DNA of 64,000 bases from Asticcacaulis sp. AND118. GTDB lineage: Bacteria; Pseudomonadota; Alphaproteobacteria; Caulobacterales; Caulobacteraceae. Under the pieces are notes generated by a model. The model was given only the letters and a program-made list of their open reading frames with translations. It searched no databases and was not told the DNA's origin. Below are positions 16,609 to 63,972 of this stretch, piece by piece. Position 1 is the stretch's first letter; the number at the start of each line of letters is the position of its first letter. A program made the position numbers and the translations under genes. Location: assembly GCF_020535245.1 (NCBI RefSeq), contig NZ_CP084910.1:472501-536500 (forward strand), in the 5' to 3' direction.

Positions 16609-16643
16609 CCCTCGACTCAAGACTGACGCTTATGCGACAAACA

Positions 16644-16719
16644 TACCTCCCTGGCTATGCCGGGGAGGGGGACCGCACGAGCCGCCAAAGGCGGTGAGAT
16701 GTAGTGGTGGGGTTTCTTA
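16644..16719 (+). repeat. Family B single arm
   Basis: One arm only: TACCTCCctggctatgccGGGGAGG, then GGGACCGCACGAG, a GCCGCCAAAGGCGG hairpin and GTGGTGGGGTTTCTT. It matches the left arms at 19390, 50162, 54714 and 56811 but has no facing partner; it ends 16 bp before mutT. Confidence 0.8.
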
Positions 16720-19382: not shown

Positions 19383-19389
19383 ATGCCTA

Positions 19390-19565
19390 TACCTCCTCAG
19401 CTTGCTGGGGAGGGGGACCGTCGAGCATAGCGAAGACGGTGGTGGGGTATCTTGCGATATTTCCGCCGGCTCAGTTGCTCAAATTCAGTAAGAACCCCCA
19501 CCACCACATCTCGCCGACCTCTGGTCGTCTCGTGCGGTCCCCCTCCCCGACAAGTCGGGGAGGTA
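19390..19565. repeat. Family B unit without gene (comF-grxC gap)
   Basis: Two facing arms: left 19390-19454 (TACCTCCtcagcttgctGGGGAGG...GGTGGGGTATCTTG) and right 19491-19565 (AAGAACCCCCACCACC...CCCCGacaagtCGGGGAGGTA), separated by 36 bp. The same architecture as 50162-50696 but no gene between the arms. Confidence 0.85.
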
Positions 19566-19679
19566 TGAAAAAGAGCTTATTCCCCCTGTCATTCGCGGGC
19601 CACAGGCGCTTCTTTAAAACTTACAAGCCCTTGCCTATATAATTGTTTGTGACAAGGTTACGTTTTGACAGTGAAACCC

Positions 19680-24292: not shown

Positions 24293-24403
24293 CCCCTCTC
24301 CCTTGAGGGAGAGGGTTGGGGTGAGGGGGACGACGAGAGCAGAGCGTGGGGCTCCCCCCTCATCCGCCGCTATCGCGGCACCTTCTCCCTCAAGGGAGAA
24401 GGG
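24293..24403. repeat. Family C repeat pair, copy 4
   Basis: CCCTCTCCCttgaGGGAGAGGG and CCTTCTCCCtcaaGGGAGAAGG arms with GGTGAGGGGG/CCCCCCTCATCC inside. It fills the whole gap between the ptsP stop and the DsbD-like gene start, so it forms that gene's 5' leader region. Confidence 0.85.
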
Positions 24404-30913: not shown

Positions 30914-31031
30914 TCCCCTCTCCCTTGAGGGAGAGGGTGCCCCTGAGGGGCGGGTGAGGGGGCGACTCCGCACCACCTCATTTCTGAACGCCCCCCTCAC
31001 CCCGGCCCTCTCCCTCAAGGGAGAGGGGGAG
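30914..31031. repeat. Family C repeat pair, copy 5
   Basis: Nearly perfect pair: CCCCTCTCCCttgaGGGAGAG..GGGTGAGGGGG and CCCCCCTCACCCCGGCCC..CTCTCCCtcaaGGGAGAG. It fills the ubiG-prmC gap and ends 10 bp before the prmC start. Confidence 0.9.
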
Positions 31032-50158: not shown

Positions 50159-50161
50159 ATC

Positions 50162-50696
50162 ATACCTCCCCGGCTATGCCGGGGAGGGGGACCGCACGAG
50201 CCACGAAGTGGTGAGATGTGGTGGTGGGGTATCTTGAGGGGGACACGATGAACGACGCCATCAAGCGCAAGACCGCTCTGGCTCGACAGATGCGCAAAGC
50301 GTTGACCACGCCGGAATGGTTGCTGTGGGAACGGCTGAAACATCGCACCGATGGGCTCATCTTCAAGCGCCAGTACGCTGTCGGTCCGTATATCCTTGAT
50401 TTTTATTGCTTCAAGGCACGGCTGGCTGTTGAGGTGGACGGCACCTTACACAGTCTGGATGAACGGGCGGAAAAAGACGCGACGCGCGATGCGTGGTTAC
50501 AGTCGCAGGGCCTTGAGGTTTGCCGCCTCGCCGCCGCTGATGTGTACCGGGATGCTGATGCTGTCGCGGATGGGGTGAGGTTGCTGGCACTGGAAAGAGC
50601 GGCGCGTTTTTCAAAGATATAAGAACCCCCACCACCGCATCTCACCGCCTTCGGCGGCTCGTGCGGTTCCCCTCCCCAGCGGAGCTGGGGAGGTAT
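50162..50696. mobile_element. Family B unit carrying a DUF559 gene
   Basis: Left arm 50162-50236 (TACCTCCCCggctatgccGGGGAGG...GTGGTGGGGTATCTTG) and right arm 50621-50696 (AAGAACCCCCACCACCGCATC...CCCCAGCGGAGCTGGGGAGG). The gene occupies the space between: ATG 11 bp from the left arm, TAA inside the first bases of the right arm. Other units have identical arms but 36-50 bp between. This pattern looks like an autonomous or loaded form of a small element; mobility is not shown. Confidence 0.6.
50248..50622 (+). CDS. DUF559 endonuclease-like protein
   Basis: 124 aa. A DUF559 (Vsr/PD-(D/E)XK-like) fold: TPEWLLWERLK near the N-terminus (E23), then ILDFYCFKARLAVEVDG with D51, E62 and D64, and H68. 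These match the putative catalytic positions of the family. It lies exactly between the inverted arms of a family B repeat unit. Start ATG follows GAGGGGGA. Biochemical function of DUF559 is not established. Confidence 0.88.
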   Translation: MNDAIKRKTALARQMRKALTTPEWLLWERLKHRTDGLIFKRQYAVGPYILDFYCFKARLAVEVDGTLHSLDERAEKDATRDAWLQSQGLEVCRLAAADVYRDADAVADGVRLLALERAARFSKI

Positions 50697-50699
50697 AAG

Positions 50700-50981
50700 T
50701 TAGTAGATGTCCCTATCGTAAATAGTGGCTTGTTTGTATTTACAAATTAGAACTATTTTTCCGTCATGATACAAAAAAATGTGCCGTTTAACGACTAAGA
50801 AGCCATTGCTTTTGTATTGCGTAACATCGCCCGACCAACTCATTGGGTGTGGTATTTCATCACCTATGGCGGGAAGCACGTAACCAAAATCAGTCGGGTA
50901 ATGAGTCTGCATATCATTTAGGCTGCCGTCTTCCGTCTCGCAGAAGATATGAATTTCATAGTCTTCAAGTAATTCGTTCAT
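50700..50981 (-). CDS. AT-rich hypothetical protein
   Basis: 93 aa, acidic and aromatic (YEIHIFCETEDGSLNDMQ; DGKIVLICKYKQATIYD). Base composition is clearly more AT-rich than neighbours. No family recognised. It sits directly beside the family B element and ends 4 bp from it, so lateral transfer is likely. No obvious SD before ATG 50981. Confidence 0.6.
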   Translation of the reverse strand: MNELLEDYEIHIFCETEDGSLNDMQTHYPTDFGYVLPAIGDEIPHPMSWSGDVTQYKSNGFLVVKRHIFLYHDGKIVLICKYKQATIYDRDIY

Positions 50982-54691: not shown

Positions 54692-54713
54692 TCATATCGC
54701 CTCAACCTAATCA

Positions 54714-54883
54714 TACCTCCCCAACTTGTTGGGGAGGGGGACCGCACAAGCGAACGCAGTGAGTGAGATGTGGTGGTGGGGTTTCTTGCTTGAGCGGCAA
54801 TGCATCTGCGGATGGATAGATCGCTAGCCACCCCACCACCACTCGCTCCGCTCATGGTCCCCCTCCCCGCCAGCGGGAAGGTA
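54714..54883. repeat. Family B unit without gene
   Basis: Left arm TACCTCCCCaacttgttGGGGAGG..GTGGTGGGGTTTCTTG and right arm CCACCCCACCACC..CCCTCCCCGCCAGCGGG, about 40 bp between. It lies between convergent genes: the GH53 gene and the phosphatase-family gene. Confidence 0.85.
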
Positions 54884-54887
54884 TAAG

Positions 54888-56810: not shown

Positions 56811-56992
56811 TACCTCCCCAGTTTACTGGGGAGGGGAACCGCACGACGCGCGAAGCGCTAGATGCGGTGGTGGGGGTTCTTAAAACGGCCCAGCGGTTTC
56901 GCAGGCTGAATGTCCGCAAGATACCCCACCACCACATCTCACTCACTGCGTTCGCTCGTGCGGTCCCCCTCCCCGGCATAGCCAGGGAGGTA
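56811..56992. repeat. Family B unit without gene
   Basis: Left arm TACCTCCCCagtttactGGGGAGG...GGTGGGGGTTCTT and right arm AAGATACCCCACCACCACATC...CCCGGCATAGCCAGGGAGG. 40-45 bp between. Separates the TraB-like gene from the XRE gene. Confidence 0.85.
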
Positions 56993-57002
56993 TGAAATGG
57001 CG

Positions 57003-63919: not shown

Positions 63920-63972
63920 CTCCCCTCTCCCTTGAGGGAGAGGGTGGCGCAACGCGCCGGGTGAGGGGGAGG
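63920..63972 (+). repeat. Family C repeat, truncated by window end
   Basis: CTCCCCTCTCCCttgaGGGAGAG..GGTGGCGC..GGGTGAGGGGG; first arm after the TldE gene, the facing arm is likely outside the window. Confidence 0.75.

Follow-up and report, generated by a model that had tools for sequence, protein, structure and literature searches.

In REPIN/RAYT systems, many intergenic palindrome pairs, some of them gene-less, accompany a cognate gene with the same repeats on either side of it; the cognate gene encodes TnpA-REP, a Y1 HUH transposase. MITEs and their parent insertion sequences are likewise short elements with inverted repeats, some carrying a gene and others none. Among mobile-element nucleases, I-Bth0305I is a homing endonuclease of the EDxHD type and the protein of a mobile intron.

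Another class of repeats is the intrastrand-triplex motif (TM; earlier 'PIT'), classically CCCTCTCCC..GGGAGAGGG..GGGTGAGGG, which according to the available sections of its description has been reported in more than 260 genomes and is associated with instability of the E. coli genome (PMC4666352). The same sections count 23 copies in MG1655, five inverted pairs among them, and state that the motif's authors saw no mobility gene near the E. coli copies, that the triplex is stable in vitro with stable formation in vivo unsupported, and that in an earlier study the motifs were without promoter or terminator activity (PMC4666352). DUF559 proteins, for their part, have been connected with repair: in the accessible part of PMC12907096, the Caulobacter DUF559 protein VsrA is described as Vsr-like and as needed for the SOS response that follows deletion of a cytosine methyltransferase, and a role as mismatch repair enzyme is proposed for it.

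Here we describe a locus in which these two subjects meet, a DUF559 gene enclosed by a pair of convergent arms of a genomic repeat. The window, by which we mean the whole 64,000-nucleotide stretch of DNA that was analysed, comes from an Asticcacaulis genome (G000) of 4.05 Mb in 4 contigs, and its relevant features are as follows.

50160-50235, plus strand: left arm, family B, with CCTCCCC hairpin GGGGAGG, second stem and GGTGGTGGGG; third purine tract toward the gene
50248-50622, plus strand: DUF559 (PF04480) nuclease-like gene, 124 aa, ATG start (ORF, Pfam profile)
50621-50696, minus strand: right arm, family B, inverted (match to the 76-bp left arm on the other strand)
19389-19568, no strand: gene-less unit, two convergent arms, 36 bp between matched arms (arm matches)
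54711-54887 (end approximate), no strand: gene-less unit, right arm diverged (arm matches)
56811-56995 (end approximate), no strand: gene-less unit, left arm diverged (arm matches)
16642-16718, plus strand: solo arm, partner not seen in the following 200 bp (arm match; absent from the preliminary description)
30915-31028, no strand: gene-less unit, arm family other than B: classic triplex motif CCCTCTCCC..GGGAGAGGG..GGGTGAGGG (motif match)
24294-24327, plus strand: classic triplex motif (G000:C1:496794-496827)
63923-63967, plus strand: classic triplex motif (G000:C1:536423-536467)

A preliminary description of the window, made from the letters alone, had claimed that arms at 50162 enclose a 124-aa DUF559 gene, with the ATG just inside the left arm and the TAA in the first bases of the right one. 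This arrangement is real: the ATG lies 12 bp past the end of the left arm, and the TAA (50620-50622) shares bases with the beginning of the right arm. Positions 50162-50202 and 50656-50696 form an inverted repeat that is 88% complementary, and the arm at 50162-50231 folds stably as DNA (z -5.17). Its tracts are CCTCCCC (pyrimidine), GGGGAGG (complementary purine) and GGTGGGG (mirrored purine, T for A being allowed). The arms, at about 75 bp and with this third purine tract, are unlike the repeats of REPIN/RAYT, and the GTAG/CGTC tag at the hairpin foot is absent from the window arms, whose ends on direct reading are TCATACC or ATACC.

The neighbours of the gene, named from their translations, are an SRPBCC-like ORF, a 93-aa ORF and groEL. 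The 93-aa ORF occupies 50700-50981 on the minus strand between the right arm and groEL, a gap that holds other genes in some relatives. Unlike in Vsr (VSP) repair, whose nuclease cuts at T:G mismatches, no cytosine methyltransferase gene was found among the immediate neighbours; for VsrA the methyltransferase gene is a distant one. Tandem-repeat and Rfam searches at the locus returned nothing, and PADLOC gave a weak DpdF match and nothing else.

The protein itself had been proposed to be PD-(D/E)XK-like and to stand in the place of a transposase, and both points find support. In a Pfam search the window protein matched only DUF559/MTES_1575 (92.8 bits, cut-off 20.6), with neither a Y1 HUH transposase nor any other known transposase family among the matches. 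The closest structural matches of its AlphaFold model (pLDDT 88) are 3hrl, a Neisseria endonuclease-like protein, the homing endonuclease I-Bth0305I (3r3p) and 5hmC-dependent restriction enzymes, with Vsr matching more weakly; a profile search agrees, giving 3hrl, PvuRts1I and I-Bth0305I. The model and profiles support a predicted Vsr-fold, PD-(D/E)XK-type, nuclease-like protein. Residues E23, Q42, D51, E62, D64 and H68, which do not vary across alignments of 16 and of 36 proteins, are candidate active-site residues, D51 being partly invariant by construction because the 35 relatives in the larger alignment were fetched with a pattern that includes it. In sequence family, predicted fold and conserved acidic and His residues the protein is like Vsr and the Vsr-like DUF559 proteins (VsrA, NGO0050 of structure 3hrl, E. 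coli ycjD); the available accounts of these, however, describe them as repair or unknown proteins without framing repeats, whereas here the gene is repeat-framed. By fold and profile it is also near the mobile-element nuclease I-Bth0305I, but the DUF559 gene is free-standing between repeats and not part of a mobile intron.

The same arms recur through the genome. With the left arm as query against G000, 40 of 95 candidate regions were scored, and even as lower bounds the counts reach at least 62 matches, which resolve into at least 24 convergent pairs and 14 unpaired arms, a diverged partner being visible for 5 of the 10 unpaired arms inspected. All 24 pairs found among family-B neighbours no more than 600 bp apart are convergent, and no other orientation was seen. 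At least 22 of the pairs lack a gene, their matched parts being 32-69 bp apart, and the two with gene-sized gaps (385 and 398 bp) both contain DUF559. In having inverted repeat pairs that also flank a cognate gene, the family resembles REPIN/RAYT. The earlier claim of facing arms with short spacers at 19390, 54714 and 56811 agrees with the three gene-less units tabulated above. Its further suggestion, that these are derivatives of the loaded element, survives in part: the arms are common to both forms, but the spacers of about 43-52 bp (judged by eye from 16 rows, most units being present on both strands) are alike among themselves and unlike the DUF559 gene, so the gene-less units do not look like gene-deleted copies, and simple deletion derivatives were ruled out on this ground. 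This, together with the lack of a known transposase and of a clear target-site duplication, also sets the system apart from MITEs and insertion sequences. Elsewhere in G000, one DUF559 locus has a complete left arm and only a remnant on the right side (L002), another carries an arm family other than B (L004), and a third (L005) belongs to a conserved DUF559 site found in 15 genomes.

To place these arrangements in a wider context, we turned to the genus. DUF559 matches were present in 23 of 25 Asticcacaulis genomes (the window genome and 24 others), 119 matches being placed by local tblastn, three of them twice. For each gene, the 260 bp upstream were aligned with the reverse complement of the 260 bp downstream, a score of at least 16 was taken as framing, and pseudo-gene positions within the same loci served as the null. 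Inverted arms framed 78 of 100 genus genes as against 62 of 5071 pseudo-gene positions, while 22 of 100 scored below 16; three rows of L052 (the same DNA as L068) and L118, with its short flank, are omitted from this count. When loci were grouped by shared flanks, 45 sites were obtained; with one conserved site put aside, 38 of the other 44 include one framed member or more. The conserved site is the one found in 15 genomes, where a different arm family frames 9 of 15 genes. These 15 loci, with 'long ORF' DUF559 genes, had been considered as a control and were dropped from that use; they are reported apart because all are one conserved site. Also in the genus, one locus (L068, G011:C12:93823-98841) contains three DUF559 genes within about 2 kb, with matching arms on each.

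Arms and proteins have diversified together. Across the 105 of 119 matches that passed length and flank limits, arm similarity followed protein identity (Mantel rho 0.35, 0/300 permutations), and it did so for loci at different sites (rho 0.30, 0/500 permutations), where 30 of 34 pairs with at least 70% protein identity share arms (arm score of at least 20). Arm family and DUF559 protein clade therefore co-diversify, also at unrelated sites. Arms are present in two genomes without any DUF559 match (G024 and G006), which rules out a strict dependence of the arms on DUF559.

The pairing extends well beyond the genus. Outside Asticcacaulis, in Sphingomonas, Sphingobium, Brevundimonas, Phenylobacterium, Caulobacter and others, 57 of 66 DUF559 genes are framed, these being the usable loci among the best 80 of at least 587 confirmed loci from named genomes, with L329 omitted for its short flank and 13 Asticcacaulis loci kept out of the count. 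Loci for 30 matches from 150 sampled Pseudomonadota genomes gave 21 of 29 framed, or 22 of 30 with the window genome's own framed locus (L381), and the joint null for these two sets was 31 of 2473. Arms beside DUF559 genes in related genomes had been put forward as the comparison to make against chance, and the outcome is 78/100 in the genus and 57/66 outside it (among the same best 80) against nulls of 1.2-1.3%. Of eight plasmid-borne loci hand-picked for breadth (seven of them from Cyanobacteria and Deinococcus; flank limits slightly different, no null of their own), six score at least 16, and the other two, at 9.5 and 10, have arm-like matches. Three loci from a plasmid collection (L170, L171, L172) have low arm scores (10, 9 and 11); both arms are visible at L171 and L172, the right arm lying inside an annotated ORF, and no left arm was seen at L170. 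On the Sphingomonas parapaucimobilis plasmid NZ_CP155755.1 (L171), the framed DUF559 gene interrupts a transhydrogenase operon, and the right arm encodes its C-terminus. On three cyanobacterial plasmids (L413, L417, L418) DUF559 genes adjoin genes for DUF1156, which has a defence role, or BREX PglX, and are perhaps inserted in defence loci. In phage records DUF559 was found in 4 of 50,697.

The arms share with the triplex motif the order pyrimidine-purine-purine and the occurrence of inverted pairs; they depart from that motif, as the available sections of PMC4666352 describe it, in being tied to a gene, in falling into more arm families and in having a convergent gene-bearing form. A triplex rule was applied that requires a pyrimidine tract, a complementary purine tract and a mirrored purine tract (A or T opposite A) as exact 7-mers, leaving out L052 and L381. 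It was matched on either side in 55/101 loci of the genus, 52/67 outside it (among the best 80 of at least 587) and 25/29 of the phylum sample, against 48/2577 in the null; on both sides, the figures were 28/101, 35/67 (same selection), 12/29 and 2/2577. With an unmirrored third tract as control, 23/101, 29/67 and 22/29 loci matched (null 26/2577), and with a pyrimidine mirror 7/101, 19/67 and 12/29 (null 20/2577). At the level of sequence, the arms of the genus fit an intrastrand-triplex rule, and mirroring is a distinguishing feature there, a weaker one outside the genus and hardly one in the phylum sample, in which the mirrored and unmirrored rules cannot be separated because near-symmetric CCCTCTCCC arms are common there. 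Within the genus the third tract points toward the gene rather than away from it in 45 versus 15 left arms and 38 versus 11 right arms; in at least two Deinococcus loci it seems, by reading, to point away.

Furthermore, the classic motif and DUF559 co-occur. Of the 150 Pseudomonadota genomes, 27 contain the motif pattern and none contains it in reversed letter order. Clear DUF559 matches were present in 21 of the 27 motif-bearing genomes versus 10 of 123 others (Fisher p 4e-13), and by genus in 15/19 versus 6/68 (p 6e-9), with 15 of 46 DUF559-hit genomes scored as lacking (best match E 2.9e-5 to 8.8e-4; many very long open frames); if weak matches are included, the counts become 22/27 and 24/123. 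The association is incomplete in both directions, 6 of the 27 genomes having the motif and no clear DUF559, and 10 having DUF559 without the classic motif. Among the places listed for four genomes (G067, G087, G095, G115), all four classic-motif pairs with a gene-sized gap hold DUF559 inside; in G115, one motif pair around a broken DUF559 gene has the same orientation and is not convergent.

The E. coli representative of the family, ycjD, lies between sapF and fabI, and a 381-bp stretch around it was matched in 3365 of 5426 E. coli genomes. In strain L410 the end of ycjD overlaps a degenerate triplex motif, and a further motif 167 bp past the stop codon is identical in all 35 bases to copies in Table 1 of the motif description, as far as that source is available (PMC4666352). 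In strain KE47 (L170) the motif overlapping the end of the gene reads intact by eye. No left arm was visible at ycjD in the E. coli loci that were opened. Two inspected strains without ycjD have efflux-pump genes after sapF, which rules out the sapF-fabI interval as a clean empty site; in the accessible part of PMC12817139, efflux-pump genes after sapF vary by phylogroup. The KE47 sequence, NZ_CP141089.1, is a 4.9-Mb 'plasmid' record and is probably a mislabelled chromosome, because it carries sapF-ycjD-fabI.

Comparison of sites between species bears on how these units come and go; the names groEL, thiC and acnA used here are readings of translations or sequence. The earlier proposal to compare empty with filled sites is answered most directly at the acnA site. 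Among six species sharing the neighbour gene, one (the window genome, L003) has the full element, one a single arm with partial spacer, and in four the stop codon runs into a terminator-like hairpin with no repeat, so that filled, single-armed and empty states occur at this site. A target-site duplication there would be TAA at most, and no clear one was found at the acnA site or in three units compared between relatives. Downstream of thiC, DUF559 lies within about 1.5 kb in 6 of 25 species; in the 13 listed pairs, of 15 in all, the flanks are 83-91% and the proteins 41-55% identical, hence different DUF559 clades occupy one site. At a third site (L061), three relatives have another gene and only the end of the right arm, and a fourth has the left arm and, after it, other DNA of about 1.07 kb that closes with a short hairpin. 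The acnA, thiC and L061 sites thus show gain, loss or swap. Framing is widespread and the states at acnA differ, so that the picture which the preliminary description had set against its own reading, namely DUF559 genes unlinked to arms with no empty/filled polymorphism, was not what was seen.

On a finer scale, three bipartite units and one solo arm distinguish two relatives that are 93% identical over 400-kb stretches, and in place of the three units the relative has 25-56 bp of other sequence. The exact 7-mer rule gave 7 clusters on 400-kb stretches, 2 unresolved and 5 called absent in the other genome, 2 of the 5 having a visible diverged counterpart; a polymorphism rate from this rule or from a narrow arm regular expression was abandoned, since the units are too few. 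Some sites are old: DUF559 is found no more than 2.4 kb from groEL in 7 of the 25 species, and one locus recurs in 15 genomes. This suggests that movement is slow or that the genes have been domesticated. As an insertion comparison the groEL site was set aside, for it differs on either side and offers no clean junction. In one genome (G008, L107) the element joins two flanks that four relatives have at separate places, two of these relatives on different contigs, and the flanks of L039 (G022) match two different DUF559 sites; because of these two cases, DUF559 elements may mark chromosome rearrangements.

The pairing of DUF559 with convergent arms, and its breadth, are direct observations, and on balance we favour reading them as a two-part repeat element of the REPIN/RAYT kind, in which triplex arms would be served by a Vsr-fold DUF559 nuclease replacing the Y1 transposase. 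The repeat would be the pair of convergent hairpin or intrastrand-triplex arms, and its partner the nuclease encoded between such a pair. We infer that DUF559 would bind or cut the folded arms when they are single-stranded, during replication or repair, and that mending of the break could copy a unit, with or without the gene, to an intergenic site or lose it from one; cutting of the arms and mobility by DUF559 would both follow from this scheme. Gene-less units would be non-autonomous and depend on the nuclease in trans, much as REPINs depend on RAYTs. Against this scheme stand the chance that the arms by themselves could recombine with the help of host enzymes, and the role in mismatch repair proposed for VsrA in the accessible part of PMC12907096.

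A bolder form of this reading we advance only tentatively, as somewhat more likely to fail than to hold. It would make DUF559 framed by triplex arms a separate class of mobile element, with one small Vsr-fold nuclease (124 residues in the window) as sole protein, acting on folded or triplex DNA ends. Such a class would supply the mobility factor missing for the triplex repeats of more than 260 genomes, would count E. coli ycjD among its members, either domesticated or in decay, and would extend through Alphaproteobacteria and other Pseudomonadota as far as Deinococcus and Cyanobacteria.

The nuclease might instead be a homing enzyme, which cuts gene-less arms and is copied into them by repair from a loaded copy with the same arms, the gene being a selfish rider in a repeat family spread otherwise. 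The presence of I-Bth0305I among the closest characterised folds, the sharing of arms and not of spacers by loaded and gene-less forms, and the different clades at one site in different species would all fit. Nevertheless, at none of the acnA, thiC and L061 sites does a gene-less unit in one species face a loaded unit of the same family within the same two arms in another, and relatives at the acnA site have no repeat, a single arm or the full element; we regard homing as unlikely.

Lower in our estimation, and improbable, is that DUF559 is a Vsr-type repair nuclease merely carried, duplicated and lost as unstable hairpin or triplex arms break and are repaired. The need for VsrA in the SOS response of cells without a cytosine methyltransferase, as given in the accessible part of PMC12907096, the link of the motif to E. 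coli instability in the available sections of PMC4666352, and the element at a rearrangement breakpoint in G008 speak for it, but passive cargo does not predict a single gene family, co-diversification of arm and clade, or genome-wide co-occurrence. That the arms are terminators or intergenic insertion hot spots near which short genes end up by accident is very improbable, for although the window arm folds stably and the stretch after thiC differs between species among the sequences listed, random positions in the same loci give only 1.2-1.9% across the framing and triplex-rule nulls, gene-sized family-B gaps hold DUF559 in both cases, and the earlier study cited in the available sections of PMC4666352 speaks against terminator activity.

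Returning to the two-part element, the comparison with REP/RAYT made in the preliminary description stands, in that the pairing, its breadth and the gene-less pairs are all seen. Its statement that no such system had been described needs qualification: the repeats are known (PMC4666352) and the DUF559 protein is known as Vsr-like (PMC12907096), both from sources available in part, and no paper was found that joins the two. In the open-access literature, where subscription journals are mostly absent and silence is weak evidence of novelty, no link of DUF559 or ycjD to repeats was found, nor any paper with 'DUF559' and 'inverted repeat' together.

Because the gene-in-repeat arrangement recurs in distant bacteria, DUF559 is a good candidate for what spreads or maintains the hitherto unexplained triplex repeats. 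It offers these motifs a concrete and testable partner, one that is framed by them, has diversified in step with them and is found together with them across genera. Conversely, the uncharacterised DUF559 family, ycjD included, gains a genomic context and a likely substrate. If the favoured reading is right, the pairing would be a second way, unrelated to the first, of building a partnership of the REP/RAYT type.
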